Shown piece by piece: positions 24,446 to 41,972 of a stretch of 64,000 nucleotides of DNA. The first letter of the stretch is position 1; every line of letters starts with the position of its first letter. The translations under genes were made by a program, and so were the position numbers. Location of the stretch: positions 1-64,000 of the forward strand of contig JAIOHM010000209.1 of the NCBI GenBank assembly GCA_019912965.1, written 5' to 3'. The notes below the pieces were generated by a model. That model was not told the DNA's origin. It saw only the letters and a list, made by a program, of their open reading frames with translations, and ran no database searches. This DNA comes from Anaerolineae bacterium. GTDB taxonomy: Bacteria > Chloroflexota > Anaerolineae > Aggregatilineales > Phototrophicaceae.

Positions 24446-25378
24446 TTACTTCCGTTCCTGCAACACTTCGGCAACAGTTGTCCGTCCCACCTGTACACCC
24501 ACGCTTTTTAGAGTGGATAGCACTTGATTGACTGATAACTGTGCAAGGTCAGGGTTTGCATTCAGATACGCTCGAACTCGCGCTTTCTTCCCGTCCATTT
24601 TCTGTTCACTTTGTCCGCTCTGTCCGTTCGCTGAGTGTCCGTTTTGTCCGTTTGAAGCGGACAATAATCGGACACCGGACGGATTGCCTCGTCCTAAGTA
24701 ACCTTTGACCTCACCAAACGCCCGCTGTCGTGCATCCCGTTCGGTAATTCCTTGTTGCAGATAGCGGACAAACACCGCGCGGTAAATCACCGTGAATTCC
24801 ACTTCCTGCCAGCGCTCTTCTCGAAAGTTATTGCTTGTACGCCGCTCAAGGGCTAAGGCTGCTAATCCATCGCCAGCCACTAAGGCTCCAATGGGGATGA
24901 TAAAAGCCGATAGTAGCGCCATAACCAGCGCCGCCTGAGTGGTCGCGGGTAGATTTCCAAACCCTTCAATGATGGCAGTAAATGACAAATCCTGAAGTTG
25001 GGTGACAGCCACCACTGAGGTAAATGACCCAGCACCGTTCACCAGCATCGCGGTCAGAAACAAGAGGACTTCCAACGCCCACAGTGTCCAGGGCACGGTT
25101 TCTTGTCCAGCCTTCGCCAGTCGTCGTCGGAAGGCTGCATAGAGCAATCCAAACTCAACCCCAATCGGTGCAATCCATCCCCAACCCGGGGTGAGCTTGT
25201 CAAACACACTGGCAGTATGTGGCGCAGACAACCCATACAATACGAGGGCAACCAACACAATCCAGTAAGGTACACTACCGATCAGAATGTCTCGCACTGA
25301 GCGGCGCGGTGCTTCCTCACGCAGCCAACGCTTGCGTTCTTCACGATACACACTTTCTATATCCAACATCTCGCTCAT
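24446..25378 (-). CDS. Cassette-end membrane protein with HTH-like tail, copy 1
   Basis: 310 residues from ATG at 25378; GAGGAGG six bases before makes this start clear over the upstream in-frame ATG at 25420. A charged N-terminus is followed by four membrane helices (SVPYWIVLVALVLYGLSA; GWGWIAPIGVEFGLLYAAF; LWALEVLLFLTAMLVNGAG; ALVMALLSAFIIPIGALVAG), a cytoplasmic helical region, a Gly/Gln/Ser linker (NGQ-SGQ repeats) and a 45-residue HTH-like tail (ARVRAYLNANPDLAQLSVNQ, then VGRTTVAEVLQ). The layout resembles DUF2637/SpdB-type proteins of actinobacterial mobile elements, but I cannot confirm this. Three copies in the window, each beside the same 106-bp repeat, mark it as the conserved end module of an element family. 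Confidence 0.75.
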   Translation of the reverse strand: MSEMLDIESVYREERKRWLREEAPRRSVRDILIGSVPYWIVLVALVLYGLSAPHTASVFDKLTPGWGWIAPIGVEFGLLYAAFRRRLAKAGQETVPWTLWALEVLLFLTAMLVNGAGSFTSVVAVTQLQDLSFTAIIEGFGNLPATTQAALVMALLSAFIIPIGALVAGDGLAALALERRTSNNFREERWQEVEFTVIYRAVFVRYLQQGITERDARQRAFGEVKGYLGRGNPSGVRLLSASNGQNGHSANGQSGQSEQKMDGKKARVRAYLNANPDLAQLSVNQVLSTLKSVGVQVGRTTVAEVLQERK

Positions 25379-25397
25379 TATCGCCTCCTCATTTACT

Positions 25398-25503
25398 CTT
25401 GGGATATAATGGATGCACATGTATGGAGGTAATAGAGCTTGTTGACAGCGAGTATTCGATGCAGAATCGCAGATTGTGACTACCCATGCCCTTAGGGTTA
25501 TTA
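25398..25503. repeat. Attachment-like repeat, copy 1 (A/B junction)
   Basis: First of three 106-bp copies; it differs from copy 2 at 4 positions and from copy 3 at 6. It contains TATAAT (25405-25410), GGAGG, TTGACAGCG, the near-direct repeats GCAGAATC/GCAGATTG, and ends in CCATGCCCTTAGGGTTATTA. At copy 3 the equivalent end is the chromosomal yifB coding sequence. It is read as an element junction (attR of A joined to the left end of B). Confidence 0.8.
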
Positions 25504-25564
25504 TGAAGAGGCGACTAGCATTTCAACTTTTAGCCGGCTTGTTTTCATCTCATCAATGACTAAA

Positions 25565-25801
25565 TTATGGAACTTGATGGGCCACATTACATAGTAAACA
25601 CTCCGATCCAATGCACATTGTTTTTTCTAAACTATTACTTACAAATCCTCTAACATTTTCGTCACTTATCAGCCAATACTGAGTGAATGAATTTTTCATC
25701 CTCAGATGTTTTGAAAGCTTATCGTAGACTTTCGCCACTATTACTCCCTTGGTGTTTCGAAATTGCAGGTCATATATAATTATGCAAACTGCAGCAGTCA
25801 A
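25565..25801 (-). CDS. Small protein, possibly Cas2/SinR-like (uncertain)
   Basis: 78 residues from TTG at 25801, without a ribosome site. It reads VCIIIYDLQFRN, then AKVYDKLSKHLRMKNSFTQY, then WLISDENVRGFVSN and SECLLCNVAHQVP. The order (strand ending YDL, helix with YxxL, strand ending WLI, helix, strand) is like small ferredoxin-fold Cas2/SinR-type proteins. The match is of pattern only. A GTG further in has a better ribosome site (AAGGGAG) but would remove the first strand. It is divergent from the NACHT gene. It may be a chance frame. Confidence 0.3.
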   Translation of the reverse strand: MTAAVCIIIYDLQFRNTKGVIVAKVYDKLSKHLRMKNSFTQYWLISDENVRGFVSNSLEKTMCIGSECLLCNVAHQVP

Positions 25802-25828
25802 AAGACGATTTAGAACGGACTGATCATT

Positions 25829-28800
25829 ATGCGAGTTTTTTTAGCCAGACGCATACTAGCAATCCTGGTACTCATAATAGGGATATTAAGTTTGTTACTG
25901 ATCCTTATATCACTCCTACAGGGTAACACTGATGCCGTTGTCATTTTGGCAAGTATCGTTGGTTTAATAACAGGGATTCTACCAATTTCCGAGTTTCTGC
26001 GGGGTAGGCTTGTTAAAGATCGAAGAGTAAGTCCTGAAAATTACACTAACGCTACTATTGAAATGTATTTGCGTGGTCGCGTAGTAGAGTTCGAAGACGA
26101 AGAGCGGTATTTCATTTCACTTTCCGGCAATGTCTCCATCACTAATCAATTTGAAGTGTTAGATAAAGCTTTCCCAGAAACTGCAACTGGGCAGCTAGTT
26201 AAAACATTCGATGATATAAGCGAAGTTACACTTGATTATAAAAGATTCATTTTAGTGGGTGATCCGGGTGCTGGGAAAACAACAGTTTTACGTCGTTTGG
26301 TTGTTAGCCTTGCTCGTCAATATATTCAATCAGATGGACACGAAGGATTATTGCCCTTTTGGATTAGCCTAGATAAGCATGACGGCCCTAAAAGGGACGC
26401 GACCAAGTTACTTCAATACTGGTGGCATGACATATATAACCTTGAGAGCGATCCCCTAACTTATCTAAATAATCGGAGGCTATTTCTATTCTTTGATGGC
26501 TTAAATGATGGATTGGAAAGCTTTAGTGATAAACAAGAAAGAATAGATTCATTGGTATCATTTCTAAAGGCATACCCTGATGCTCCAATTATTATTTCAA
26601 GCCGAACGCATGAATATCTTGGCAAGCTTGAGTTGGAATTACCGGTTGTCCGTTTGATGCCGCTCGACGATATGAGAATTAGAAATCTAGTTGTCAAGAG
26701 GCTAGGCGATACGGAGATGTTCGAAAAGATTTCTGAAAATGTTCCCTTAATTGAACTTGCAAGAAATCCCTATAATCTCACAATGTTGATTTATGTATAT
26801 AGTTTCCAACATGACTTACCTGCAGATCTCAATTCTCTTTACGCCGACTTTCTGAAGTACCGCTTCAAAGATTATTCATCGAGACATTTGCTACACCTAA
26901 AGTGGGATCAATTAGAACAAAGATTACAATCTTTGGCCTTTCTTATGCTTAAAACTGGAAAGGGCACACATGCAGATATCAACTGGGTCAGAAGACAAAT
27001 AGGAAATAGAGCCATATCAGATGCAGTAAACTTAGGTGTGCTAGTTTATGACGCAAGGGCTGTACGTTTTTATCACCAATCGCTTCAAAGTTTCTTTGCA
27101 TTACCATTGCTTAGCAGGGCACTCCAACATACAAATAGTATATTGGACTATGGATTTGGTAAGCGACTTGATCTGATAAAAACAATTTCCAACTTAGGTA
27201 GCGCTGCTGCCCCTGCAGTACCTGCATTGATTGAACTTCTTGAAGACCCAATCACGCCTATCCGATTAGCCGCCATTGAGGCGCTTGGCGAAATCGGTGA
27301 GTTGATTGCGCCTGCAGGGCCTATCTTAGCAAATTTATTAGATGATAAAGATAAAAATATTCGCTGGGCAGCAGCTCTAGCATTGGGGAAACTCGGTTTA
27401 CCCTCCTCATCCTCAGTCGCTCTCTTGGAACAATTGCTTCGCGATGGCAACCGTGAAGCGCGCAAAGCTGCAGCTGATGCTTTAGCTAAGATTGGAGATG
27501 CTGCTGCTCCTGCAGTGCCCACTTTGATTAATCTTCTTGATGACCCGAATATGCCTATCCGCCTAGCGGCTATAGAAGCCTTAAGCAAGATTGGAGATGC
27601 TGCTGCTCCTGCGGTGCCCACTTTGATTGACTTTCTTGATGACCAAAATCCAACTATCCGATTAGCTTCAGCCACAGCCGTGGGAGAACTCCATAAACAC
27701 AGTGTATCGGCCTTCTCGGATCTTGTGCGACTACTCAACGACCCTGTTCAAGAGATCAGATTCGCAGCTGCGAATTCTCTGGCAGTCATCGGCATCCCTA
27801 CTGATAATCAGCCCTTACCAACTACGAACAGCGAGCTAGAGGATTTAGAAGGGTTATTTACTGCGTTGCAGAATATGATCAAAAACCATTCTGAAGAATT
27901 CAACGAAAAACCTGCACTAAGAATATGTGAGTATCTTAGTGAGAAACTGGGCTTAAAAATTATTGAAAGAGATGATGTGAGTACCCTTGAAACAGGTACG
28001 CGGGTGGCAATAACTGTAGGCGATCAAAAAATAGAATTATATGTTGTGTTTATAGATCGTCCTCTTTGGAAAATGGGTTTACCAGATAAAATTCCCCTTG
28101 TAGTTCCACTCACTGAGCGAGTATCTATGGATTATTTGCGACGCGTTCCTACCCTTCTAGCTCAAGCAGGAGCTAGCGGTGACTTTGCGTTGTTAGTTGC
28201 AATGGGAATCACTCCTGATATTGATATAACTAAGCCCGCTTCAGTGGTTTTACTATTAAAAGAAGACATTATTTCCAAGATAGCAACTAGTACGTATCCC
28301 TTAGAAAGCCTTCAAAGGATAGTTGCCAACAGAGCTGATATTCAGATAATTTCTCCTTATGAATCGCGTGGGCCAATTGATCCTCTCCTGTACTTTGGTC
28401 GTACTGACGAATTAGAAAAAATCTTGCGTAATATCAGAAGAAAAAACTATTTTTTGGTGGGAAAAAGGCGTGCAGGAAAAACTAGTACATTACACCTAAT
28501 AAAACAACACTTTGCTAAGTTAGGGGTGACCGATGTGATCTTAATTTCGTCCAGTCTAGAAAGCGTGACGGACGAATATACATTAAGACAGGAGATACAA
28601 GAGAAGTGCGGTCTGGAAGTACCAGACGGCCCCATTGGACGATCATTAGTGAGTATATTTGACGAATATGCCAGACGCCAAGGTGCACATGTTGTTATTC
28701 TCTGGGATGAGGCAGATCGGATAATTGATTATGACTCAAACCATGATTGGCCTATTTTTCGAGCGTTAAGAGATGCCACGCTTGTTCCCAATCCCTCATT

Positions 28801-29425
28801 TACCATATTAATTACTGGCTTCCTTTCGCTTTATAAAGGACTTCACAACGGTCAATCCCCGCTATTCAACTTTGGCCCCGAAATAATTTTGAACCAACTT
28901 TCGCAAAAAGCTTCAGTTGACCTAATAGTTCAACCATTAAATACACTCGGCATTGAAGTCAGTGACAGTTTGGCGGAGAAAATCTACATATTTACCTCAG
29001 GTGATCCTGCTTTGATTCAGTTCGTATGTAGCGAAATAATTCAAACACTTCAACAAGCTGATAATTCTCAAAGGCTTGTTACTAACGAATTGCTGGAGAC
29101 AATCTTTGCATCAGACATATTTGCGATTGAGTATTTGGAAGCAACTTACGGCACTTTTCTACCCAACTTATTGCGTTTAATCATTCTTTGCGCGTTAAGA
29201 TTTGACTCTCAGATTATTCCTGAGACGGATCTCATTAAGGCGGTCAAAGATTTTGTCCCACACACCTCCATAGACGATATCCAGTTTGGAATTAACGTTT
29301 TATGTACTTATATGCTTAAAAAGCAAAAAAGCAAGTTAGAATGGCGAATGAAAAAACTTCCACAGATTTTACGCCAAACTCGCGACTACCAATTAGAGAT
29401 AGACACTTTATTGGAGAAACTATGA
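25829..29425 (+). CDS. Membrane NACHT-HEAT-AAA protein with two NTPase domains
   Basis: 1,198 residues. Two membrane helices (7-29, 36-54) are followed by a NACHT-type NTPase with P-loop GDPGAGKT (144-151), Walker B RLFLFFDGLND and ISSRTHEY. From about 450 to 655 there are HEAT/PBS-type repeats (AAPAVPALIELLEDP, IRLAAIEALGEIG and variants, some nearly identical). A mixed domain (about 680-850) precedes a second AAA ATPase that starts YFGRTDELEKIL, with P-loop VGKRRAGKTSTL (near 880) and Walker B VVILWDEADRII. One polypeptide thus carries two separate NTPases at the membrane. Proteins with NACHT plus repeat sensors are antiphage STANDs; this fusion is unfamiliar. The ATG has only a weak ribosome site. 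Confidence 0.8.
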   Translation: MRVFLARRILAILVLIIGILSLLLILISLLQGNTDAVVILASIVGLITGILPISEFLRGRLVKDRRVSPENYTNATIEMYLRGRVVEFEDEERYFISLSGNVSITNQFEVLDKAFPETATGQLVKTFDDISEVTLDYKRFILVGDPGAGKTTVLRRLVVSLARQYIQSDGHEGLLPFWISLDKHDGPKRDATKLLQYWWHDIYNLESDPLTYLNNRRLFLFFDGLNDGLESFSDKQERIDSLVSFLKAYPDAPIIISSRTHEYLGKLELELPVVRLMPLDDMRIRNLVVKRLGDTEMFEKISENVPLIELARNPYNLTMLIYVYSFQHDLPADLNSLYADFLKYRFKDYSSRHLLHLKWDQLEQRLQSLAFLMLKTGKGTHADINWVRRQIGNRAISDAVNLGVLVYDARAVRFYHQSLQSFFALPLLSRALQHTNSILDYGFGKRLDLIKTISNLGSAAAPAVPALIELLEDPITPIRLAAIEALGEIGELIAPAGPILANLLDDKDKNIRWAAALALGKLGLPSSSSVALLEQLLRDGNREARKAAADALAKIGDAAAPAVPTLINLLDDPNMPIRLAAIEALSKIGDAAAPAVPTLIDFLDDQNPTIRLASATAVGELHKHSVSAFSDLVRLLNDPVQEIRFAAANSLAVIGIPTDNQPLPTTNSELEDLEGLFTALQNMIKNHSEEFNEKPALRICEYLSEKLGLKIIERDDVSTLETGTRVAITVGDQKIELYVVFIDRPLWKMGLPDKIPLVVPLTERVSMDYLRRVPTLLAQAGASGDFALLVAMGITPDIDITKPASVVLLLKEDIISKIATSTYPLESLQRIVANRADIQIISPYESRGPIDPLLYFGRTDELEKILRNIRRKNYFLVGKRRAGKTSTLHLIKQHFAKLGVTDVILISSSLESVTDEYTLRQEIQEKCGLEVPDGPIGRSLVSIFDEYARRQGAHVVILWDEADRIIDYDSNHDWPIFRALRDATLVPNPSFTILITGFLSLYKGLHNGQSPLFNFGPEIILNQLSQKASVDLIVQPLNTLGIEVSDSLAEKIYIFTSGDPALIQFVCSEIIQTLQQADNSQRLVTNELLETIFASDIFAIEYLEATYGTFLPNLLRLIILCALRFDSQIIPETDLIKAVKDFVPHTSIDDIQFGINVLCTYMLKKQKSKLEWRMKKLPQILRQTRDYQLEIDTLLEKL

Positions 29426-31176
29426 ACGTTTATGAGAATCCATTTGAGACCACTGGGTTTCTTGATCCTGACAATCCAAACTACTCAAGTCTTTATGTCA
29501 GCAGAAATGGTCTTGAAGCGAATATTCTGGCGCGTCTCCGAAGAGCAGATAGACCACATGGAGCTTATATTTATGGCCCACGACAGATTGGCAAAACCTC
29601 ACTCATGTATCACTTGGGCTTCAACTTGAAAAACAATGCATGGAAATATGTGTATGTAACACTCAATACTTTGAGTAAAGACAATCAACAAGAATGGTGT
29701 CAAAATCTTTGGATGCGTTTTGCTAATCAGCTAAAGATTTCTATAGTTAAGGCTGATCTGCCACAAAATATTAGTGACTTTCATACTGCTATTATGGAAC
29801 TACCAAAACATGTCGACGCGCTTCGGATTCTTATCATTTTTGAAGAAATAGAAACAATAAAACCGTTGAATTTAGAAGACGACCTTTGGATACAGTTTTT
29901 AGTAATGATTCGGTCATTAGACCAAGAGCGCAACTACGCCGGAGCAAAAAAATTAGGCTTCGTATTGGCTGGACACGAGAATCCTTATATTCTTATGGAT
30001 ACAATGCCAACCGAATGGAAACTTAAGGTTTCACCACTATTAAATACTTTGCAGCCATTTCATCTCGTGGATTTTGATCTTGATGGCGTTAAACAACATA
30101 GCACGTTTTTTGGCACATTCTTAGGAGTAACACTTACTGATGAAGTCGTTGGGCGTATTTTCGCATGGACAAGTGGTCATCCATATTTGACACAAAAGGT
30201 TTTTAGCAATTTATACGAATCAGTTAGTAAACAATTACCGAATATTACCATTGATGGTATTGTAAAAAACATTTTGAATGATCCAGCTGAACCGCATTTA
30301 GCCCAGCATCTAGCCAATAAGATAAAAAGTTTCACTGATAAAAGTAGAACAATTCTTTTAAAGTCGCTTTCACCACAACCACCGTTCTGGAGCTTAAGTG
30401 ATGTAGAGCAGCAACGACTTCACACGCTAGGCCTCATAAAGAAAAGAGATCCAAATTACGTCATTATTAGAAATAGTATATATGCAGCTTTTATCCAAAA
30501 CTCAATTTCGTTTTCCCGTGAACAGATTACCCCTGCATTAATTTACAAGGGTCTCAATATTCCCTCTATTCATCAACAAGTCCTTAGATTAGTCAGTCAA
30601 TCAGTAGGCATAGGACTTCTGGCTTGGGTAGTTTTACAAACATTTATTCTTAGGAACAATTTACTATTGCCACTATCCATATTATTTTCATATTTAATAA
30701 TATATTTTATAATATGGTTCAGGTCAATCTTGTCTCAACGCCAATCAATGACGATAAATTTACAGGAGAATAATCCATTTGTGCCTCGTGTATTCTTGGA
30801 ATTTGATACGGTTATTCGACCAGACCAAAACTGGACAGTGACTATCAGGGGGACGGAAGAAAACCCATATCAGACCATTGAGCTTCATGGGCAACCTATG
30901 AAGGAGATAAATTGGATAAACTCCTATTGTGAAGTTAATCTAAGCAATCAAAATAGCTTCATTACAGCACGATTAACAAAACCCACTAGGTGGCGCTATA
31001 TTCTGTTACCATGGCCAGATATGTGGGTAATTCCATTAGAAATTCGGTGGCTAGGGCACTTTCTTAAAGCAGAAATATCAGTTATAGCGGATTCACCAAA
31101 GACTATTCCACGCATTCTGATTGGCCCTATAAATTGGTTCGTGACACTGATTGGAAAAAAGCTGGAAGGTACTTAG
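29422..31176 (+). CDS. AAA-like ATPase with membrane hairpin and C-terminal beta domain
   Basis: 584 residues from ATG at 29422, which overlaps the NACHT gene's stop (ATGA); an upstream in-frame ATG at 29341 lies deep within that gene and is less likely. The AAA-like domain has YVSRNGLEANIL, P-loop YGPRQIGKTSL (51-61), Walker B RILIIFEEIETI, and the sensor region FAWTSGHPYLTQKVF. Two membrane helices lie near 395-435, and a beta-rich domain of about 140 residues follows (QNWTVTIRGTEENPYQTIEL and so on). It is probably the partner of the preceding protein, since its ATPase resembles the second ATPase there. The pair forms the cargo of cassette B. Confidence 0.75.
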   Translation: MNVYENPFETTGFLDPDNPNYSSLYVSRNGLEANILARLRRADRPHGAYIYGPRQIGKTSLMYHLGFNLKNNAWKYVYVTLNTLSKDNQQEWCQNLWMRFANQLKISIVKADLPQNISDFHTAIMELPKHVDALRILIIFEEIETIKPLNLEDDLWIQFLVMIRSLDQERNYAGAKKLGFVLAGHENPYILMDTMPTEWKLKVSPLLNTLQPFHLVDFDLDGVKQHSTFFGTFLGVTLTDEVVGRIFAWTSGHPYLTQKVFSNLYESVSKQLPNITIDGIVKNILNDPAEPHLAQHLANKIKSFTDKSRTILLKSLSPQPPFWSLSDVEQQRLHTLGLIKKRDPNYVIIRNSIYAAFIQNSISFSREQITPALIYKGLNIPSIHQQVLRLVSQSVGIGLLAWVVLQTFILRNNLLLPLSILFSYLIIYFIIWFRSILSQRQSMTINLQENNPFVPRVFLEFDTVIRPDQNWTVTIRGTEENPYQTIELHGQPMKEINWINSYCEVNLSNQNSFITARLTKPTRWRYILLPWPDMWVIPLEIRWLGHFLKAEISVIADSPKTIPRILIGPINWFVTLIGKKLEGT

Positions 31177-31245
31177 GAATTGAATTACTCATTAACTCTA
31201 AGCAATAAAGTTGATTTACTTGTCGAACCTTGTCTCCTAGGAACT

Positions 31246-32176
31246 CTACAGATTTTGATTTCGTTCCTGCAAAACATCGGCAACGGTGGTGCATCCGGCC
31301 TGAATGCCGACCTCTTTGAGAGCGACGAGTACCTAATTGACGGACAGCGCTGCGAGGTCGGGAGGGCGTCCAAGTAAGCGTGAACGCGAGCTTTGACCGT
31401 GCTGCCTTGTCCGCTTTCATGCTGTCCGGCGTGTCCGTTTTGTCCGCTCTGTCTGGTCGGAGCGGACAGTTGGCGGACAGCGGACACCGCCGCCTTCCCT
31501 AACTATCCGCGCACCTCGCCGGACGCTTTTTGCCGTGCTCCATCTGCGGGAAGTCCTGTTGCAGATACCGTCCATACAGGGCGCGGTAGATGACGGTGAA
31601 CTCTACCTCCTGCCATGCCTGCTCTTTGGCATCGCTGGTTGTCCGACGCTCCAGCGCCGCGAGGCCATCCCCCGCAACGAGTGCACCAATGGGGATAATG
31701 AATGCCGATAGTAGTGCCATAACCAGCGCCGCCTGAGTCGTTGCGGGTAGATTTCCAAACCCTTCAATGATGGCGGTAAATGACAAGTCTTGAAGTTGTG
31801 TCACAGCCACCACTGAAGTGAGTGATCCGGCACCGTTCACCAGCATCGCGGTCAGGAACAAAAGAATTTCCAATGCCCACAGTGTCCAAGTCACGGTTTC
31901 TTGTCCAGCCTTCGCCAGTCGTCGTCGGAAAGCTGCATAGAGCAATCCAAACTCAACCCCAATCGGTGCAATCCATCCCCATCCAGGTGTGAGCTTGTCA
32001 AACACACTGGCAGTATGTGGCGCAGACAACCCATACAATACAAGGGCAACCAACACAATCCAATAAGGTACACTGCCGATCAGAATGTCTCGCACAGATC
32101 GCCGAGGAGCTTCTTCACGCAGCCAACGCTTGCGTTCTTCACGATAGACACTTTCTATATCCAACATCTCGCTCAT
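31246..32176 (-). pseudogene. Cassette-end membrane protein, decayed copy 2
   Basis: The first 200 or so codons match copies 1 and 3 closely, from ATG at 32176 through all four membrane helices to YRALYGRYLQQ. The reading frame is then lost: one frame ends at 31499, the Gly/Gln linker and ARVHAYLDA continue in a second frame, and the tail (DLAALSVN, stop, VLVALKEVGIQAGCTTVAD) is in a third with a TAG inside it. At least two indels and one nonsense change have removed the HTH-like tail. The membrane part could still be made (226 residues plus a frameshifted tail). Confidence 0.85.
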
Positions 32177-32195
32177 TATCGCCTCCTCATTTCCT

Positions 32196-32301
32196 CTTGG
32201 GATATAATGGATGCGCATGTATGGAGGTAATACAGTTTGTTGACAGCGAATATTCGATGCAGAATCGCAGATTGTGACTACCCATGCCCTTAGGGTTATT
32301 A
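32196..32301. repeat. Attachment-like repeat, copy 2 (B/C junction)
   Basis: Second 106-bp copy, with TATAAT at 32203-32208 and CGAATATTCG as a perfect 10-bp palindrome. It ends CCATGCCCTTAGGGTTATTA like copy 1, after which the sequence diverges completely from copies 1 and 3, so the shared unit stops here. Confidence 0.8.
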
Positions 32302-32529
32302 CAATGACGTTAAACGAGCCATCCTTTTTTCGAGCCTATTGATTTCACCGACATCTCTGGTCAAAAGCTATAAAGCTACCCATGATTCTCGGCTACAACA
32401 CATGGTTAGACTGCGCTGATTTCTGTAATTTCCGCTTTTCAGCATTCCCCAAGAGTTATCCTAAATCAACTCAACTTGGCAGTATAATTGCTTGATAATG
32501 ACAGGCTACATTGGCAATGGGGGAAATTC

Positions 32530-34065
32530 ATGCTCTCAGTTGTTCGTGCGTGTGCGCTAGTCGGTTTAGATGGCTGTATTGTTGAGGTCGAAACTGACTT
32601 CAATCCGCGTGCAGGAATCCCTGCATTTACAATTGTTGGTTTACCTGACAACGCGGTAAAAGAAAGCCGGGAACGTGTGCGAGCTTCTGTAAAGAACAGT
32701 GGATTAACTTTTCCCAACAAAGTTTATGTAGTCAATCTCTCACCCGCAGAATTGCCCAAACATGGCCCTGCTTATGATTTGGCAATTGCAATTGGTGTAC
32801 TAGCATCAACGGATCAAGTGCCTCTTGATTCATTAGACAAGTCCATATTCATTGGTGAATTATCTCTCGATGGCAGTGTGCGTCATGTCAAAGGGATAAT
32901 GCCAATGATTTATACGGCCTATCGAGAAGGATTCGAGCGAGCATATGTTGCAAGCGAGGATGCACCTCAGGCAAGTCTTGTGGACGGTATTGACATTATT
33001 CCAGTCGAAACACTTGGTCAATTAGTTGAACATCTTTATGGCTTAAACCCGATTGACGTATATAAAACGCCGGCAAATACAATACAAAGCACGCCGATTA
33101 AAGACGATACAGTCGATTTCTCAAGCATTGCAGGGCAGGAAGGTGTGAAACGTGCCTTAGAGATTGCTGCTGGAGGAAACCACAATATTAGACTTATTGG
33201 CCCACCTGGAACGGGTAAAACTCTACTTGCTCGTGCTGTACCCGGTATTTTGCCGCATATGAGCCTCGAAGAAGCTTTGGAGGTTACCCGCATCTATTCT
33301 GTAGCAGACATGCTGCGAAATGACCACCCGCTCATGCAAGAGCGACCTTTTCGTGCCCCTCATCACACAATTTCTCAGCCTGGGATGGTGGGTGGAGGAA
33401 CCATTCCACGACCTGGTGAAATCACCTTAGCTCATCGTGGGGTTCTCTTTCTCGATGAATGCACAGAACACAACTCGCGAACACTCGAAGTTTTAAGGCA
33501 ACCAATTGAAGATAAAATTGTGACCATCTCAAGGGCAAAAGGTGCTTTGACGTTTCCCGCAAATTTCCTGCTTATTCTAGCCCACAACCCGTGTCCTTGT
33601 GGCTATAGCGGGCATGCCACAAAAACCTGTACCTGCACACCTGCCATGATTAGCCGATACCAAAGCAAGCTTTCCGGGCCGCTCTTAGACCGAATTGATA
33701 TTCACATCGAAGTACCGCATGTGGATTACGATAAGCTTTTGGGAAACACAAAAGGAGAAAATTCAGAAACAATACGAACACGGGTCGAAAAAGCCAGAGA
33801 GCGTCAGCGAGATCGCTTTCGAGAGTCATCAGGTCTGTTTGCTAATTCCGACATGAGAGTGGGGGATATTCAGCGGTTTTGTGTGCTGACGCCAGAGGCG
33901 CGGCAGCTACTAGATATTTCGGTGCGGCGAATGCAGTTGAGCGCGCGGGCATATCACCGTCTTCTCAAACTGGCGCGGACGATTGCTGATCTTGGAGATT
34001 CCGAGAACATTGGTATCCAGCATGTAGCTGAAGCAATACAATATCGTTCGCAACAGTTAACATAA
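32530..34065 (+). CDS. yifB: YifB/ComM-type Mg-chelatase-like ATPase, intact divergent copy
   Basis: 511 residues from ATG at 32530 (GGGGGA upstream), the normal length; the ATG at 32488 is less likely. It has the Lon-S5-like N-terminal domain (IPAFTIVGLPDNAVKESRER), P-loop GPPGTGKTLLARAVPGILP, FRAPHHTISQPGMVGGG, Walker B GVLFLDECTEHN, and the C-terminal RMQLSARAYHRLLKLARTIADL. ComM is a helicase that aids branch migration in natural transformation in some bacteria. The chromosomal yifB fragment at 41490 is a homologue but clearly not identical. The codons for PCPCGY (residues 354-359) differ synonymously from the integration core in the chromosomal gene. This may replace the gene destroyed by integration. 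Confidence 0.92.
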   Translation: MLSVVRACALVGLDGCIVEVETDFNPRAGIPAFTIVGLPDNAVKESRERVRASVKNSGLTFPNKVYVVNLSPAELPKHGPAYDLAIAIGVLASTDQVPLDSLDKSIFIGELSLDGSVRHVKGIMPMIYTAYREGFERAYVASEDAPQASLVDGIDIIPVETLGQLVEHLYGLNPIDVYKTPANTIQSTPIKDDTVDFSSIAGQEGVKRALEIAAGGNHNIRLIGPPGTGKTLLARAVPGILPHMSLEEALEVTRIYSVADMLRNDHPLMQERPFRAPHHTISQPGMVGGGTIPRPGEITLAHRGVLFLDECTEHNSRTLEVLRQPIEDKIVTISRAKGALTFPANFLLILAHNPCPCGYSGHATKTCTCTPAMISRYQSKLSGPLLDRIDIHIEVPHVDYDKLLGNTKGENSETIRTRVEKARERQRDRFRESSGLFANSDMRVGDIQRFCVLTPEARQLLDISVRRMQLSARAYHRLLKLARTIADLGDSENIGIQHVAEAIQYRSQQLT

Positions 34066-34444
34066 TTCGATAGAGCACTCAAATTACTGGAACTTCTCAG
34101 TTAATGTGATCGAAACGTTGCAGTTATCAAGCCGCTCACTCCGTGGGCAAGTTGCCATGTTATACATATTCAAGTCTTCTGAGATATTTTAGTGCGGTAA
34201 GAAAATTGTCGTTAGTTTGCTTGTTTTATTCTCAAAGTGTCTCTAAAAATTATTAATTCATTTGCTCCACTTTGCCTGAAGACATACAGGATTGACCACA
34301 AACCCTTCATACCCTAAGTATCCACAACATAAATAATGTCATCAGTTTGCAGTTTGCCCGCATATCGCCAGTAGACACAGCCGTTTCAGGAGTCGGTCAA
34401 TCTTCACAAATAGTGATGAATATCACTATCACATCTCTATTCTT

Positions 34445-34473
34445 TTGACTAAAATTGCAATAGTAATTAAATA
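34445..34473 (+). promoter_or_regulatory. Candidate sigma-70 promoter
   Basis: TTGACT (34445-34450), a 17-base spacer, then TAAATA (34468-34473). The -35 box matches 5 of 6 consensus bases; the -10 is poor. It points at the terminator 200 bases downstream, not directly at the kinase operon. Confidence 0.35.
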
Positions 34474-34680
34474 TTTATATTGCGATTATCTCATAAGGAA
34501 CCGAAAACAAATCCAACGGATTTATTTGGATGGATATGGGGTGCCCCCAGATTCGCCCGACAAAATCACATGAGACCTAATTCGGTAGCCAGTCAAAAGT
34601 TGTTGCGACAATCAGCGAAAACGTGATGCGAAGATAGTGTATTCAACATCAAGATAACAGAATAATTCCTTCGTCTGATT

Positions 34681-34726
34681 GCCGAAAATGACCCTGAACG
34701 ATAAAGGGATTTTCGGCTTTTCTTTT
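34681..34726 (+). terminator. Strong intrinsic terminator
   Basis: GCCGAAAAT (34681-34689) pairs with ATTTTCGGC (34709-34717), extended inside by CCCT/AGGG, with an 8-9-base loop, followed by TTTTCTTTT. This is a textbook rho-independent structure. It lies far from the preceding yifB stop (about 615 bases), so it probably ends a separate short transcript. Confidence 0.8.
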
Positions 34727-35068
34727 GATAGTTGAAGTTACACAGATGATGGAAGGCAATACATAGGGTAAGCCGGGTTAAAGTCAACCGCTGTAGGAAT
34801 AACATCGAGTTTGCCGTTGAAATCAGCAAGTCGAGTATGCCTCTCATGGTATTCCAAACGCGATTAGGCGCGCAAAGCCAAACCGATGTGGTTGTGCCAC
34901 GCGCCCTCCAAATGAGACTGCCTAGCCTCAATGTTAGAAACTTGCTAGGCTGCAATCAGAAAGTTGATCTAACTCTGTTAAACATTTGCCACCGAGTCCA
35001 TATATCTGATTCTAGTCCGCTTTATTCAACTGAGTAAGGTGATTACCATAAACAGATGGAGTAATTTC

Positions 35069-36994
35069 ATGGACATGCAACAATATTTGCGGTTAGCATC
35101 CCCCCTTAACGTTCTAGATGTGCTGGAACTTCCCATTTTGGATAATTTTCTTAACGGGTATAGTTTTGCACTAGGTTCTGGTATATGTGTTGTCTATCCT
35201 AGTGTACCCAAAATAACCTTGGAAACTCTAGATAGACGAGACGCACGAGATACAGAAGCCTCACGTACTTTCCGCCCGCTTTGTGCATATTGGCGAGCTG
35301 AAAATGGTTGTAACCAAGATCAACACTGTATCGACGCAGATAAATGTGAAGTATTCAAATACATTGACAGAACACAGTCTAAACCCAAATTGTACTGCTG
35401 CACTCCTCTTGGATTGTGGGATATGACTTTTCCCCTTCGCATTGAATCAAACATCATCGGTGTACTTTTCGGGGGTCAAATTGTTGTAAATGATACTACA
35501 GTCAACTGGAAACAAGAACTTAAGGAATATGATGAGTTTATTGATTGGGCAACTTGTCCAGATGGAAAAACTCATATTGAGCACATTAAAACAAAGATCG
35601 AGAACCAAAAAATTCCTGAGCATCAGAAAACTAGCCTTAATCATTTCATGTCAGACAAATCCACAGGCTATGAATCTATATCTGTGGAAGATCTTAAAAA
35701 AAGATTTGGGGATTTTTTGAAGTTCGGAAAAATAACCCAAGAACTGCTTGATGAGTTACATAAAGCCCGAAAAACTGCCGCAGAGCAGCAACTTCTCCGT
35801 GATTACGACGAGAAATTGGAAACCCTTGACTTGACAAATTCGGCTTTTTGGTGGGAGGAGTGCGGGCGACTGCTAGATGACCTGACCGAGCTACCAGGAA
35901 TTACAGCTGTCCGCCTTTATAGACGCGCACGATCACGGTATGTTTGCGAAGTTCCTGTACGGCAAGGAGCGGAAATTATCAGACGCCTTCCAACCCGAGA
36001 TGTGATTCCAGTATTCCCTGCCGCGCAATTAGTATCGGTAAAGAAAGATATTGCAGCGAATTTCGGATTTAAGCACGATAACATCTGGGGTTACCGATCT
36101 CAAACTGGAGCCGGAAGCGAGTCTTGCAGCACATTGGTTATTTTTCAAGGAACGATTCCGGATGAAAGACGGAGGTTCATAGCAGACCTTTGCAAAGAGG
36201 TGTGCATAGCTACCGACTTTGCACTCTTGTTTTTCCGAGAGCGCGATGTTGACAGGCAATACAGGTTGAAAGTTGACCTAATAGGACATTCAATCCGAAC
36301 CCCATTACAGATCCTCCAATTCGATCTGGAACAACTAGCAGAAACCCCTCTTATTGCAGAAACAGCGGAATTACAAAAAAAAATATCAAACGGCATGGAG
36401 CGAATTCGAGATGCTCGTGAGGATGTCCAGCTGTTATTAGAATCCGACGACCAAGCTGTAGAAGTGTTCAATTTTGTTGATGTTGTAGCCTACGTTCTCG
36501 GGAGCATGGAATCCATTGCCCAAAACCATCCCTGTGTCATCGTCAAACAAGGAACATGGTTAGGAAATATTCTCGTTCGAGGGAATCGTTATCGCGTACA
36601 GCGTGCCTTGACCTGTTTGCTGGACAATGCCATCAAATATTCTTTCTATACTCAACGTCGGGATGGCGGCGGACTTTATGAAGTTCGAGTGTGGTTTGCC
36701 GTAGAAGACGGCTATACCAAGGTTACCATGCGCAACTACGGGATCGGGATACCTGAAGCCAAACTGGCTAACCTCCGAGAATATGGTCTCCGAGGCAATG
36801 TGCCAGATAAAAGAAAGAGACGCCTCGGCACAGGACTAGGATTACCCTTCGCCATTGATGTATTTGAGGAATCGGGAGGATGGATTCACATAACGAGCAT
36901 ACCAGCCATTTCTGCCACTGAAGAGGAAAGAAAAACCTATCTTCGATACATTACCACAGTCGAAGCGGCGATGCCTATATGGAAGGAAAATTGA
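35069..36994 (+). CDS. PocR-domain histidine kinase
   Basis: 641 residues from ATG at 35069 (GGAG seven bases before); a GTG at 35039 is an alternative. Residues 30-190 are a PocR-type sensor: FRPLCAYWRAENGCNQDQHC with more Cys (DADKCEV, LYCCTPLGLWDM) and PLRIESNIIGVLFGGQIV. A divergent kinase follows: H-box LIGHSIRTPLQIL (His near 408), N-box LLDNAIKYS, G1 YGIGIPE, G2 GTGLGLPFA. There is no membrane segment, so it should sense a cytoplasmic ligand or redox state through the Cys cluster. It heads a three-gene operon with a receiver (3-base gap) and a large HD protein. Confidence 0.82.
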   Translation: MDMQQYLRLASPLNVLDVLELPILDNFLNGYSFALGSGICVVYPSVPKITLETLDRRDARDTEASRTFRPLCAYWRAENGCNQDQHCIDADKCEVFKYIDRTQSKPKLYCCTPLGLWDMTFPLRIESNIIGVLFGGQIVVNDTTVNWKQELKEYDEFIDWATCPDGKTHIEHIKTKIENQKIPEHQKTSLNHFMSDKSTGYESISVEDLKKRFGDFLKFGKITQELLDELHKARKTAAEQQLLRDYDEKLETLDLTNSAFWWEECGRLLDDLTELPGITAVRLYRRARSRYVCEVPVRQGAEIIRRLPTRDVIPVFPAAQLVSVKKDIAANFGFKHDNIWGYRSQTGAGSESCSTLVIFQGTIPDERRRFIADLCKEVCIATDFALLFFRERDVDRQYRLKVDLIGHSIRTPLQILQFDLEQLAETPLIAETAELQKKISNGMERIRDAREDVQLLLESDDQAVEVFNFVDVVAYVLGSMESIAQNHPCVIVKQGTWLGNILVRGNRYRVQRALTCLLDNAIKYSFYTQRRDGGGLYEVRVWFAVEDGYTKVTMRNYGIGIPEAKLANLREYGLRGNVPDKRKRRLGTGLGLPFAIDVFEESGGWIHITSIPAISATEEERKTYLRYITTVEAAMPIWKEN

Positions 36995-36997
36995 TCC

Positions 36998-37615
36998 ATG
37001 TCCATTGAATTACGGCAGATTAAAGATTCACTGAACAATTGTAAGGTGTTGATAGTAGAGGATGATGATCTCTTAGCTAAACGAATCAAATCGCTTTTTG
37101 AAAAATATACTCATTTAGAACCAACGATTGCCCGGTATATGGGTGCGGCACGCGCAATCGTAACAAAACGAGGCGGGGATTTTGATCTAGTGATCTTGGA
37201 TATCATGCTCCCGGCAACGCGTCAGGATTTCGGAGAAATACAAGGCCTAGAAAAAAGACTGAAAGACTTGCGAATGAAATTAGAGGGCGACTCAGCTTCT
37301 CTGGATGAAAGTGCACAGGCAGCCCGCCGCGATGCGAGATATGAACGTGGTGAAGCGCTGAAGCGAATAGAGGAGCTGATTGACCGTGAGGGAGGCATCA
37401 AACTAATAAATGAATGGCTAAAATATTATCCGGACGAAAATCAGCGTTTTACTGTTCTGTTCCTCACTGCTTTAGGAAACAATGAAGTTGTGACGAGAGG
37501 TTTGCACCTTGCAGGACAGTTTTCTGATTGGATTGTCAAACCTATACCAAGTGATTTGATTCTTGAAAAATCTGCCAACCTGATTGTAAAAAAGTTAGCC
37601 GTGCGGGACACATAA
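36998..37615 (+). CDS. Receiver-domain protein with internal insertion
   Basis: 205 residues. It starts like a receiver (NCKVLIVEDDDLLAKRIKSL), with the phospho-acceptor in LVILDIMLP (Asp near 66). The Thr (FLTALGNN, near 155) and Lys (DWIVKPIPS, near 181) come about 65-70 residues later than normal because a charged, helical segment (about 75-140, GLEKRLKDLRMKLEGDSASL and following) is inserted after the Asp strand. There is no output domain. It should accept phosphate from the adjacent kinase and act by protein contact, perhaps on the HD protein. Confidence 0.78.
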   Translation: MSIELRQIKDSLNNCKVLIVEDDDLLAKRIKSLFEKYTHLEPTIARYMGAARAIVTKRGGDFDLVILDIMLPATRQDFGEIQGLEKRLKDLRMKLEGDSASLDESAQAARRDARYERGEALKRIEELIDREGGIKLINEWLKYYPDENQRFTVLFLTALGNNEVVTRGLHLAGQFSDWIVKPIPSDLILEKSANLIVKKLAVRDT

Positions 37616-37621
37616 TTAGCT

Positions 37622-40222
37622 ATGAGCAATAAACCTAATGATGAGACTTTCGAGTTTGACCCGAACTTCATCAAAATTAACACATTCTTTGTGAATAAGT
37701 ATTGGTCTAAACGCGAGTATTCGACTCTCGAGCTTACCAGTGATCTCCAACAGCAATTGGGATGCCTAGCTGTAGCGCTTTTCAGTTTCGAAAGAGAAAA
37801 CAGACCACTCATTAGACTATCCTATCCTACTCAAAAAGAAAACTTGATCAATAAAATCCTAACATATGAAGACATCAGCCAATATGTGAATGCTGCGTGC
37901 AAAACTGGGGAATATAGCGGTGAAAGCTTCGGGATTGATGTTCAAGTAGGAGAAAAAGAGGATCTCGGTTTTAAAGAAATCGATTTGATTGTTTTGCCCC
38001 GTTCTGCAGATAGTGAAATATCTGTGACCTCTACACATTTTTTCATGCTCATCGATCCTGCCCAGCTAATACACCTTCCTAATCATAAAGCTGAACGTGA
38101 TTTGCAACGTACCATGATCGCGCAATTCTTGTATGGTTGGTGGGTAAGATTCACAGCTCCTAAATACATGTCTCTCAATCCAACTCTCGGCGCATCCCAA
38201 GCTAACATCCCGACACTCCCAATATGGCTGTACGCCACAACGTTATCTGAAATCTTACATGAAGGTGATAGAAGTCGCGAATTCGTGAGAAGACCAGATA
38301 TGCCCGCAGAAATCTATTTCGAGGGTGAAACCCTCGACGGATTATTCCAGTGGGATAAGTGGACTCCACGTTACCTGTTTTCTGGATCAAATACGAAAAG
38401 TCTGAAAGAAATCCAAGACTATGGAAAAACTTTGACTTACTGGTCCCGATGGAAAAATTCGCACCATGACTTGGAGAAGCAACGAGCAATACCTATTTCC
38501 CCATTTTCCTCTGTAGAAACAAAAGGTAATTTGATCAACGACTGGTTACGGATACAACGGGGCGCACTCGGAAACGTCGAACAGCGGCTACAGGAACTCC
38601 ATTGTATGGCTGCAAAGGCTTTCCAGACGGGAGGAATCAAGTTTATCTGTTATCCTGAGGAAGAGGGCATTCCAAAGAAGATGCCTATTGCTTCGCACTC
38701 GTTACTCTATTTCAGTTTAAATCATTGGCTTACACCAGAAAAGAAGGGAGAACTACCCATAATCTTTTCTAGCAACGCGCTCAGTGACGTCGAGTTTTGC
38801 CGAATTATGCACAGTGTGGCCGTGATAGCACATTATCTGTTTGGCAAGGCAAGCCTGACTGACGATGTCATCCACCGACTCACGCAATTGGTCGCTCGCT
38901 ACGGACATAACGAATTAAGCATTCCTACTCGGCTTGATTTGCGCGCCCACTTGCTGCATGCAGCGCGCGGCGAACCGGCGCTCCACGCGCTTCAGCCTTT
39001 TTACCGTGATCACTTCTTCCACGTTCTGGAAGTCTGTTTTTTGGGGCACGTCCTCTTAGAAACCAAACTGGACGAGAATCAATACTTGTGGCAGTTGGTC
39101 GCAGACCATCTACACCTCTCAGGAAACAAACAGGAAGTGCTGCGATTGTGGTATGTGGCTGCCCTATTGCATGATATCGGTTATGCTATGGATGTCCTCA
39201 ATAGCAGCCGCAAGTTTCTCGGCTTTTTCCACCATTCAGAGGCATTGCGCCATCTGGATGAGAACTTCAAGGAAGCCATAGAGCGACTATCCAATGAAGA
39301 GGAGATGGAACGGTTGGATATTGGAATAAAAACCGGTGAAGATGGGATAGAGCGAGATCATGGCATCATTGGTGCTTTACATCTTCATTCGTTATTGAAG
39401 CGTATAGCTCAAGATGACCCAACTATAAACTCCTCTGGGTACATGCCCGCTATCCAAGCCATCGCTCTACATAACTTCCGACGCCCTCACTATAAAATCT
39501 CGTTTGCCAAACAGCCGCTGGCATTCTTGCTTATTGTGTGTGATCAATTGCAGGAATGGCGGCGTCCTCGACTGTCGTTCGCCACATCTCCAAACTGGCT
39601 ACTATCTACATTAGGTGGTGTTTTGCCAGACCTGACCGGTCTCGAAGGCGCGTTCAAGTGCATGACGACCAATTTAGAGGTGGTACCGGATAAAAATGGC
39701 AAAGGTATTATCAATATGCAGTTTCGCATTAACCCGGATAACCGTCCTCATGTAGAATTCATTATCGAATATGACGAACGTATCAACCGGAATAGCAGCC
39801 TTTTCCATGTTTGGCTAGATGCAACCCTGAACTTCCAACGACTTGATTTGGAGGAGCTTCCGTTTGACATTACCGTAAAATATATTAACCCGTATTATAC
39901 GAATTCAAATTTGAATATTAAATTACCTCAGCTGCATCGACTAAGAGATGCAGTTCACGAGACTCACATGACTTTCCTCACGGAATGGTTTCCAACTGAG
40001 AGGATAGAGCTTGAAGACTCTGAATCACTACTAACTAACGGAGCAGTAAGCTATCAATGCGAGGATGGCAAAGAAACGCTAACTCTCAATCTGCGGAATT
40101 TGTCTCGTAAGATGCTAATGACAAGTGACATGAGTGTTTTTTGGGACTGTATAAAAGAATGGAAGAATTTCAATGATGATCGAGATTTCCCTGGTGACTA
40201 TGTGTCTGTTAAACCCGGCTAA
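37622..40222 (+). CDS. Large HD-domain protein of a three-gene signalling operon
   Basis: 866 residues, cytoplasmic. The N-terminal 430 residues are unrecognised. A metal-dependent HD region spans roughly 450-680: HFFHVLEVCFLGHVLL, WYVAALLHDIGYAMD (His-Asp near 517), FFHHSEALRHLDENF, RDHGIIGALHLHSLL, AIALHNFRRPHY and LAFLLIVCDQLQEW, a His/Asp series typical of nucleotide or phosphate hydrolases. The C-terminal 170 residues are beta-rich and unknown. It starts 6 bases after the receiver gene. In this setting it is a candidate effector, for instance a nucleotide hydrolase switched on by the kinase pathway; the substrate cannot be told from sequence. Confidence 0.72.
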   Translation: MSNKPNDETFEFDPNFIKINTFFVNKYWSKREYSTLELTSDLQQQLGCLAVALFSFERENRPLIRLSYPTQKENLINKILTYEDISQYVNAACKTGEYSGESFGIDVQVGEKEDLGFKEIDLIVLPRSADSEISVTSTHFFMLIDPAQLIHLPNHKAERDLQRTMIAQFLYGWWVRFTAPKYMSLNPTLGASQANIPTLPIWLYATTLSEILHEGDRSREFVRRPDMPAEIYFEGETLDGLFQWDKWTPRYLFSGSNTKSLKEIQDYGKTLTYWSRWKNSHHDLEKQRAIPISPFSSVETKGNLINDWLRIQRGALGNVEQRLQELHCMAAKAFQTGGIKFICYPEEEGIPKKMPIASHSLLYFSLNHWLTPEKKGELPIIFSSNALSDVEFCRIMHSVAVIAHYLFGKASLTDDVIHRLTQLVARYGHNELSIPTRLDLRAHLLHAARGEPALHALQPFYRDHFFHVLEVCFLGHVLLETKLDENQYLWQLVADHLHLSGNKQEVLRLWYVAALLHDIGYAMDVLNSSRKFLGFFHHSEALRHLDENFKEAIERLSNEEEMERLDIGIKTGEDGIERDHGIIGALHLHSLLKRIAQDDPTINSSGYMPAIQAIALHNFRRPHYKISFAKQPLAFLLIVCDQLQEWRRPRLSFATSPNWLLSTLGGVLPDLTGLEGAFKCMTTNLEVVPDKNGKGIINMQFRINPDNRPHVEFIIEYDERINRNSSLFHVWLDATLNFQRLDLEELPFDITVKYINPYYTNSNLNIKLPQLHRLRDAVHETHMTFLTEWFPTERIELEDSESLLTNGAVSYQCEDGKETLTLNLRNLSRKMLMTSDMSVFWDCIKEWKNFNDDRDFPGDYVSVKPG

Positions 40223-40466
40223 ATAGTTAGTGGACTTGACTATGTATATCGTCAAAATGGTACAACTTCAGAGCCAATGAGACACAAGACACAATAAGGT
40301 TAAGAAATACTTTTCCCATCTGAGATCACTGAATGGCGGCAAGGTAGGTGGCTATGGACGAGAAGGTATCAGTAGGTTAAGTCTTTCGGGATATTCGCAA
40401 CCAGACGAAGCAGAGTTTTCCTGCATGTCACACCGAGATACCTAAAGAACCCTGTCCCCTGCTCTA
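40223..40466. other. Gap between convergent genes
   Basis: 244 bases between the HD gene and the leftward membrane-protein gene. I see no coding frame and no convincing hairpin. Confidence 0.5.
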
Positions 40467-41384
40467 TTAGTCTTTCTGCTTCTGTTCCTGCAAGACTTCC
40501 GCTACCGTTGTTCGTCCGGCCTGTACGCCTGCGCTTTTTAGAGCGGATAGCACCTGATTAACGGATAGATGTGCGAGATCAGGATTCGCATCCAGATAGG
40601 CTCGAACTCTCCCCTTCTTCCCATCCATTTTCTGTTCGCTTTGTCCACTCTGTCCGTTCGGAGCGGACAGTAACCGGATACCAGACGAATTGCCTTTACC
40701 TAGATAGCCTCTCACCTCGGCGAATGCCCGCTGCCGTGCATCCCGTTCGGCAATCCCCTGTTGCAGATACCGGACAAACACCGCGCGGTAAATCACCGTG
40801 AATTCCACTTCCTGCCAGCGTTCTTCCCGAAAGTCGTTTCCGGTTCGCCGTTCAAGAGCTAGGGCTGCTAGTCCATCGCCAGCAACCAGTGCGCCGATGG
40901 GAATAATAAATGCTGATAGTAGTGCCATGACCAGTGCCGCCTGAGTGGTCGCTGGTAGATGTCCAAACCCTTCAACAATCGCTGCAAAGGACAAATCTTG
41001 AAGTTGCGTGACAGCCACCACGGAAGTGAATGACCCAGCACCATTCACCAGCATCGCGGTCAGAAACAAGAGGACTTCTAACGCCCACAGTGTCCAGGGC
41101 ACGGTTTCCTGTCCAGCCTTCGCCAATCGCCGCCGGAATGCTGCATAGAGCAAACCGAACTCAACCCCAATCGGTGCGATCCATCCCCAACCCCGTGTCA
41201 GCTTGTCAAAGACGCTGGCAGTATGTGGCGCAGACAACCCATACAACACGAGGGCAACTAACACAATCCAGTAAGGCACACTACCGATCAGCATGTCTCG
41301 CACTGAGCGGCGCGGTGCTTCCTCACGCAGCCACCGCTTGCGTTCTTCACGATACACACTTTCTAGATCCAACATCTCGCTCAT
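40467..41384 (-). CDS. Cassette-end membrane protein with HTH-like tail, copy 3
   Basis: 305 residues, intact, with the same order as copy 1: charged N-terminus, four membrane helices, helical cytoplasmic part, short NGQSGQSEQ linker, HTH-like tail. It is nearly identical to copy 1 over the membrane helices; the linker is 8 residues shorter (one NGQ/NGH unit block is missing) and the C-terminus is extended by KQKD. ATG at 41384 corresponds to the copy 1 start at 25378, but the ribosome site is GAGTAGG rather than GAGGAGG. It lies 20 bases from repeat copy 3 and the yifB junction. Confidence 0.78.
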   Translation of the reverse strand: MSEMLDLESVYREERKRWLREEAPRRSVRDMLIGSVPYWIVLVALVLYGLSAPHTASVFDKLTRGWGWIAPIGVEFGLLYAAFRRRLAKAGQETVPWTLWALEVLLFLTAMLVNGAGSFTSVVAVTQLQDLSFAAIVEGFGHLPATTQAALVMALLSAFIIPIGALVAGDGLAALALERRTGNDFREERWQEVEFTVIYRAVFVRYLQQGIAERDARQRAFAEVRGYLGKGNSSGIRLLSAPNGQSGQSEQKMDGKKGRVRAYLDANPDLAHLSVNQVLSALKSAGVQAGRTTVAEVLQEQKQKD

Positions 41385-41403
41385 TATCGCCTACTCATTT
41401 CTT

Positions 41404-41509
41404 CTTGGGATATAATGGATGCACATGTATGGAGGAAATACAGCTAGTTGACAGCGAATATTCGATGCAGAATCGCAGATTGTGACTACCCATGCCCTTG
41501 CGGTTATTA
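41404..41509. repeat. Attachment-like repeat, copy 3 (C/chromosome junction)
   Basis: Third 106-bp copy, ending CCATGCCCTTGCGGTTATTA. Here GC replaces the AG of copies 1 and 2, and the sequence continues as intact yifB codons, so the right part is chromosomal. The crossover must lie at or before CCATGCCCTT (41490-41499). TATAAT at 41411-41416 points towards the yifB fragment. Confidence 0.8.
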
Positions 41510-41972
41510 TGGGGATGCACTACGAGCCTGCACCTGTACTCCCACCATGATCGCCCGTTATCAGGCACGGCTCTCCGGCCCGCTGCTCGACCGTATTGAT
41601 CTCCACGTAGATGTACCCCGCGTCGAACACGATAAATTGATGAGCGATGAACGTGCTGAATCATCTGCCAGCATTCGTGCGCGGGTTGAACGTGCCCGCG
41701 AACGCCAACGCCAGCGGTTTGGTGGACGTCCCGGTCTCTACGCCAATGCCGATATGGGTGTCAGCGATATTCAAAATATGTGCGTCCTGTCGCCAGAAGC
41801 CCGCCAATTAGTGGAAATTTCGGTCAAGCGAATGCAGTTGAGCGCCCGCGCCTATCATCGCATCCTCAAACTCAGCCGCACCATCGCTGATCTGGGCGAT
41901 AGTCAGCGCATCGAAATGCAGCACGTTGCTGAAGCCATCCAATACCGCCCACGACCGCAAAATATGGGTTAG
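41490..41972 (+). pseudogene. yifB: 3' fragment of chromosomal yifB, cut by the island
   Basis: 161 codons encode the C-terminal third of YifB: PCPCGYYGDALRACTCTP, RYQARLSGPLLDRIDLHVDV, and KRMQLSARAYHRILKLSRTI, ending at TAG 41972. Upstream the frame enters the 106-bp repeat and can start at TTG 41448, adding 14 foreign residues. The N-terminal ATPase (about 350 residues) is missing and presumably lies beyond the left edge of the window. GC content and codon use match the downstream chromosome, unlike the intact copy at 32530. Confidence 0.9.

Follow-up and report, generated by a model that had tools for sequence, protein, structure and literature searches.

A composite island in the yifB gene of an Anaerolineae bacterium, probably built from a serine-recombinase element and two accreted recombinase-less units

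How a chain of dissimilar gene cassettes, each closed by the same right end, comes to stand before one interrupted chromosomal gene is the question raised by a locus in the draft genome of an Anaerolineae bacterium (G000; 7.76-Mb assembly, 237 contigs, estimated contamination 5.17%). The window, meaning the whole 64-kb stretch of DNA analysed here, starts at base 1 of a 93.7-kb contig (C159), and a first-pass annotation of it had recorded three 106-bp repeats with 4-6 mismatches, each beside one membrane/HTH-like gene. That description was borne out: the pairwise mismatches are 4, 6 and 6, the homology extends over ~1.1 kb, and the 106-bp repeat has just these three matches in the assembly. 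The repeated unit, hereafter the end module, consists of the minus-strand gene and the junction, and recurs at spacings of 6798 and 9208 bp (Table 1). We favour, at a probability of roughly 0.7, a composite island in yifB, in which a mobilizable element driven by a large serine recombinase (LSR) is joined by two accreted units devoid of a recombinase.

The last junction enters yifB at the NPCPCGY codons and continues as codons ~354-508, at the place where the first two repeat copies carry CCATGCCCTTAGGGTTATTA, as had been claimed. A search of the assembly located the 5' half of the gene (residues 1-358) on a separate contig, C207, where it abuts the gene for a 601-aa LSR which points at yifB and has Resolvase, Recombinase and Zn-ribbon domains. 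The same contig encodes a coupling-protein-like ATPase, a Replic_Relax (replication-relaxation) protein, ParA and a TOTE-type primase, and no MobA/MobL protein was found among the scanned proteins of this genome, whose C207-C159 gap is unassembled. The cassettes had been described as recombinase-less, which stands for units 2 and 3, where the LSR protein has no match, the main ORFs belong to other families, and neither recombinase nor transfer genes occur; it does not stand for the island, whose left end bears an LSR gene. Nothing in the 64-kb window matches the LSR protein, and the earlier reading arose because that window, which shows the right part of the island only, begins at base 1 of its contig. 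A bridge contig sought from the ends of C207 and C159 returned self-matches only within the assembly, and since these two contigs are unjoined, the number of stacked units is a minimum. That assembly or binning joined three elements of different strains into an artefact is very improbable: the draft state of the genome and its contamination estimate speak for it, but all three end-module copies lie inside C159, which continues into genes syntenic with those of a relative of the same genus (G012).

Comparison with 200 relatives, and with an order-level set of 154 genomes that includes G000, provides both a single element and an uninterrupted site. In G024, one ~40-kb element separates the two halves of yifB at the same codon. 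Its right end has the end-module gene, and its left end an LSR that is 54% identical to that of G000 and likewise has Resolvase, Recombinase and Zn-ribbon domains; the interior of the element encodes a MobA/MobL relaxase and a TraG/VirD4-type coupling protein. The right-end arm matches that of G000, and the two ends, when read together, form an inverted repeat, ATTGTGAGTACCCG...CGGGTACTCACAAT, whose halves enclose a short central stretch, which is what the attP of an LSR should look like. Treated in the same way, the ends of the G000 element give GATTGTGACTACCC...GGGTAGTCTCAATC, a near-palindromic inferred attP similar to that of G024, and hybrid attL and attR sites flank the element. A similar right end occurs at the same yifB codon in G120, and no tandem array was found in other genomes among the 154.

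Intact yifB with a AACCCNTGYCCNTGYGG-type site is common among the relatives. In G012 the intact gene has a homologue of the C207 flank gene to one side and, to the other, homologues of two window genes (45504 and 48935), and the array is absent. Among five relatives examined, one of which (G001) has yifB at a contig edge, G012 was the one with genes of both flanks near yifB, and gltA, the neighbour of yifB in G000, was near yifB in none; across the ~1.5-kb flanks of 39 intact yifB loci, the acylphosphatase gene of C207 was present at three and gltA at none. The earlier claims that yifB is an insertion site, and that the chain consists of element ends, are upheld. Two findings that would have spoken against these claims did not materialize. 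The segments are not ordinary chromosome in the part tested, the array being absent from the G012 locus and the unit-3 HD protein (search at E up to 1e-30) being confined to G000 among the 154 genomes; nor is the repeat scattered away from yifB, as the arm pattern ATTGTGASTACCCRTGC occurs at four places in the 154 genomes, namely three in the array and one at the yifB junction of G024.

The cargo differs from unit to unit, as was first described. Unit 2 encodes a STAND/NACHT-HEAT protein and an AAA protein, and unit 3 a complete yifB, a PocR-sensor histidine kinase, a receiver and an HD protein. The GC content of unit cargo is 0.40-0.44, versus 0.525 to the right of the island. The supposition that the cargo consists of defence modules holds in part. 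PADLOC, run on a subset of 10 proteins (three of them from units 2 and 3), returned strong matches for the type I RM genes and a PDC-S06-class AAA protein of unit 1 and moderate TIR and viperin-type matches, so unit 1 at least probably carries anti-phage genes. In unit 2 it found one HEAT-repeat match (E 2e-13) and one weak PDC-S01 match, and for the unit-3 kinase none; on these matches, defence cargo is well supported for unit 1 only. The PDC-S06-class protein is encoded at 12335-14647 among the type I RM genes, and its match to PrrC is weaker (E 1.6e-7). The viperin-type matches (E 7e-15) belong to the radical-SAM protein, whose gene adjoins those of the TIR- and TPR-NTPases.

Table 1. Positions of the units, junctions and principal genes within the 64-kb window.
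Feature	Coordinates	Strand	Remarks
Unit 1, right-hand part only	1..25491		left part not joined to window
DUF2958 protein and other genes, unit 1	1-5098		
Type I RM with embedded PDC-S06-class AAA protein, unit 1	6820-17499		
TIR-NTPase, unit 1	18079-19980		
TPR-NTPase, unit 1	19982-22846		
Radical-SAM protein, unit 1	22843-24357		
End-module gene, copy 1	24446..25378	-	310 aa counted from ATG at 25378
Junction 1	25398..25503	+	right arm 25472-25491, then 12 bp TTAGGGTTATTA
Unit 2, 6798 bp	25492..32289		no LSR match; ends in end module
STAND/NACHT-HEAT protein, unit 2	25829-29425		
AAA_35 protein, unit 2	29341-31176		
End-module gene, copy 2, degraded	31261..32176	-	mosaic relative to copy 1
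Junction 2	32196..32301	+	arm 32270-32289, then TTAGGGTTATTA
Unit 3, 9208 bp	32290..41497		no LSR match; ends in end module
Complete second yifB	32530..34065	+	511 aa; apparently of a lineage other than the split copy; attB-like AACCCGTGTCCTTGTGGCTAT kept
End-module gene, copy 3	40467..41384	-	305 aa
Junction 3 (attR)	41404..41509	+	arm 41478-41497, then chromosomal yifB
3' part of split chromosomal yifB	41490..41972	+	codons ~354-508; 5' part on C207

The end module bears on whether the units could have arisen by exchange between homologous copies. Its ORFs span 324, 239 and 305 aa in copies 1, 2 and 3, and the encoded protein has no Pfam match above cutoff, no NCBIfam and no PHROG family, such that the label 'membrane/HTH-like', taken from reading the sequence, is putative. 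Copy 2 has decayed, in that its 3' part aligns in pieces only, with in-frame TAG stops and indels. It is also mosaic, with ~93% identity to copy 1 across ~600 junction-proximal columns and 57-76% per 75-column step thereafter, which points to at least one exchange. Such a pattern would be expected had the 1.1-kb end module been duplicated or exchanged by homologous recombination, with capture of unrelated DNA between copies and little or no direct action of the LSR on units 2 and 3. We nevertheless hold such an origin to be quite unlikely: identity between copies 1 and 3 falls from ~92% beside the junction to ~83% on the stop-codon side, so that they are no recent duplication, and the two internal units start at precisely the same position past the core, which better fits a recombination site. 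Plain duplication of the end module as the main cause was rejected on the divergence of the copies.

The distribution of the end-module gene is broader than that of the junction. It was found in nine of the 200 relatives, G000 counted, and at 13 places in eight of the 154 order genomes; as several copies (on C94 of G000, and in G012, G052, G003, G120:C3 and G044) have no yifB in the inspected flank, the gene is not specific to yifB. A match search of plasmids with its protein gave none, and in GTDB contigs there were seven loci, all in Anaerolineae, Anaerolineaceae or Chloroflexi MAGs. The copy on C94 (G000:C94:4584-5516), the fourth in this genome, is 83% identical, and its inspected flank contains neither yifB nor the 106-bp junction.

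The composition of the internal junctions also bears on the origin of the units. With up to 3 mismatches allowed, the window contains three occurrences of the 20-nt arm GATTGTGACTACCCATGCCC, versus 0.01 expected, and the last of the three arms touches yifB. At junctions 1 and 2 the right arm (P) is followed by CC and then by TTAGGGTTATTA, in place of the TTGCGGTTATTA of yifB. This half agrees with chromosomal yifB at 10/12 positions and with the left arm of the element (P') at 7/12; over 20 positions, junctions 1 and 2 agree with yifB at 15 and 13 and with the left arm at 12 and 9. The 12-bp left end is identical at both internal junctions, and after the core 16/20 positions are alike. The left sides of units 2 and 3 showed no P' arm, and a reading of these left ends as ordinary P' arms was rejected because the yifB half fits better. 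Measured against a CIME or accreted unit, each therefore has the right arm and, on its left side, an attR-like sequence that is not P'. An attP accreting into an attR should leave P-P', attP-like junctions, so the internal junctions need another step, which may be deletion by the LSR at a pseudo-site, mini-elements with a hybrid site of their own, or homologous exchange.

Were LSR deletion that step, complete elements would have stacked with attP junctions, and each attP would then have been recombined by the LSR with a pseudo-attB immediately to the left of the cargo, at the cost of the backbone and the recombinase. This would account for junctions of P plus a yifB-like half site and for the loss of the whole left part in both units, and agreement with the yifB half at 10 or more of 12 positions is infrequent (7 of ~128,000 window positions, both strands and the junctions counted). 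Against it, a search of the window and C207:1-20000 at up to 3 mismatches found CCCTTAGGGTTATTA sites at the three junctions only, and none elsewhere in the window part of unit 1, in an island that is partly unassembled; we regard deletion as doubtful. Alternatively, units 2 and 3 could be genuine mini-elements that lack a recombinase and are mobilised in trans by the unit-1 LSR, with a circular site of P arm, CC and TTAGGGTTATTA, each arrival docking at the yifB-side junction. The shared left end of the internal junctions, unit boundaries that are identical at the right end and, on the side of the cargo, fall near the stop codon of the end-module gene, and the differing cargo are all consistent with such mobilisation. 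It is nonetheless rather unlikely, given that outside the array the arm was found at the G024 junction only, that the left end is no mirror image of the right arm, unlike in the inferred attP of G000 and G024, and that copy 2 of the membrane gene has decayed.

Under the composite-island reading that we prefer, the LSR would have integrated an IME- or ICE-like element at the NPCPCGY codons of yifB, and the LSR, coupling-protein-like ATPase, replication-relaxation protein, ParA and primase on C207 would represent its left end. At least two more units would have stacked on the 3' side of yifB, each with the conserved right end and its own cargo, and neither with a recombinase. The order of these events, and the entry of units 2 and 3 via the same LSR reaction, are what we infer.

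Chains of this kind have precedents. Composite SCC and SCCmec islands are cassette chains at one gene, some cassettes being without a recombinase, which depend on a serine recombinase and insert at the end of rlmH; the present island instead splits yifB in mid-gene. The C207 LSR scored 35 and 30.5 bits against the NCBIfam models for CcrB and CcrC (cutoffs 900), and membership of the SCC group is ruled out by these scores, far below cutoff, and by a target that is yifB and not rlmH. AbaR islands in Acinetobacter share the target gene, comM, and use transposon machinery where this island has an LSR. In tandem accretion of ICEs and CIMEs of the ICESt1 family, which Pavlovic is said to have described in 2004, recombinase-less units with conserved ends reportedly stand beside a complete element; the enzyme is reportedly a tyrosine recombinase, and the internal junctions are said to be regenerated attachment sites. 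Units 2 and 3 resemble such CIMEs in their conserved ends and want of a recombinase, and differ in their attR-like internal junctions. A close case comes from Dehalococcoides, a genus of the same phylum. The first-pass annotation had not recognized the chain as a known pattern, but the available text of McMurdie (2011; PMC3146451) reports several tandem, repeat-bounded islands at ssrA with a CcrB-like serine recombinase, of which 15 lack an integration module and are proposed as possibly cis-mobilizable and moved by accretion. Those islands target ssrA, are bounded by 20-bp ssrA repeats and include reductive dehalogenases in their cargo, going by the same text (PMC3146451), whereas the G000 island targets yifB and has at each boundary an end module of 1.1 kb that includes a conserved membrane gene. 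The Mg-chelatase/ComM/YifB class is described as the target of 12.4% of predicted site-specific integrases and a major LSR target (Durrant, 2022; PMC10083194), and as the site of phage WO of the sr1WO type (PMC9203015). The target class is the same here, whereas tandem units and several codons per gene do not feature in the available text of those descriptions (PMC10083194, PMC9203015), and our search of titles on comM/yifB islands, LSRs and accretion found none reporting such an array.

Tandem stacking of serine-recombinase islands and LSR targeting of Mg-chelatase genes being known, the array is mainly a fresh case of stacking; what is unusual are the attR-like internal junctions, the complete yifB carried by one unit, the way in which the LSRs of relatives group according to the codon cut, and a yifB in four pieces in G143. 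Its value lies in presenting an accretion site from a little-studied group with most parts known, among them the LSR at the left junction, matching arms, an uninterrupted site, a single-element relative, stacked units with tandem ends and a second yifB. Two questions become testable in consequence: what allows serine-recombinase islands to stack although attR is expected to be a poor target, and what draws so many LSRs to yifB.

The second yifB, which the first-pass annotation overlooked together with the decay of copy 2 and the start of the window at contig base 1, appears to derive from a different lineage. When a tree was built on the first ~355 residues, the split chromosomal gene fell with most of the included members of the genus, and the unit-3 gene with G002 and with members of another genus, G052 and G063. 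Of the genomes in which an LSR homologue accompanies a split yifB, G141 has an intact copy in addition, and G002, G024, G059, G143 and G039 have pieces only, so spare copies are not general. At E up to 1e-60, homologues of the LSR were found in nine of the 200 relatives, G000 counted; as G012 and G140 have such homologues and intact yifB, the family is not confined to this target.

The points at which yifB is cut vary. Pieces end near residue 70 in G059 and 115 in G143; near 203 in G143, G141 and G039; near 275-282 in G129 and G037; near 310 in G143, G059, G108 and G002; and near 360 in G000, G024, G059 and G002. Some of the ends in G129, G037 and G108 may be assembly breaks. In a tree of nine LSR sequences (those of G039 and G140 partial, and one G143 stop written as X), the LSRs appear to group by the codon cut, with those of codons 203 and 360 in separate groups; support is 1.00 for the former and just 0.61 for the latter, which includes G059. 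Such grouping within one gene would offer a natural series for studying shifts in specificity. The LSR adjoins the 3' piece of yifB in G002 and G059, and the 5' piece in G000 and G024. A more ambitious proposal, which we consider improbable as a whole, is that yifB in this order serves as a self-renewing docking station, at which LSRs have shifted codons, islands bring a spare yifB with a fresh attB, hybrid sites of P and a yifB-like half act as landing points, and recombinase-less cassettes arrive in trans.

Other arrangements were noted in passing. In G143, yifB lies in four pieces (1-115, 113-205, 200-310 and 306-510), three on C117 (20-82 kb) and the last on C22, seemingly split by three insertions, the middle one with an LSR containing one stop and the end-module gene at opposite ends. 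A ~92-kb region of G059 (G059:C1:108665-201000) holds six yifB matches, with 5' pieces repeated and the LSR beside the 3' piece, the reverse of G000 and G024. Finally, a complete yifB is followed 0.7-57 kb downstream by a 3' remnant in G127:C53, G160:C565, G164:C44, G149:C327 and G179:C1, which suggests past insertions after which the gene may have been restored by element-borne sequence.
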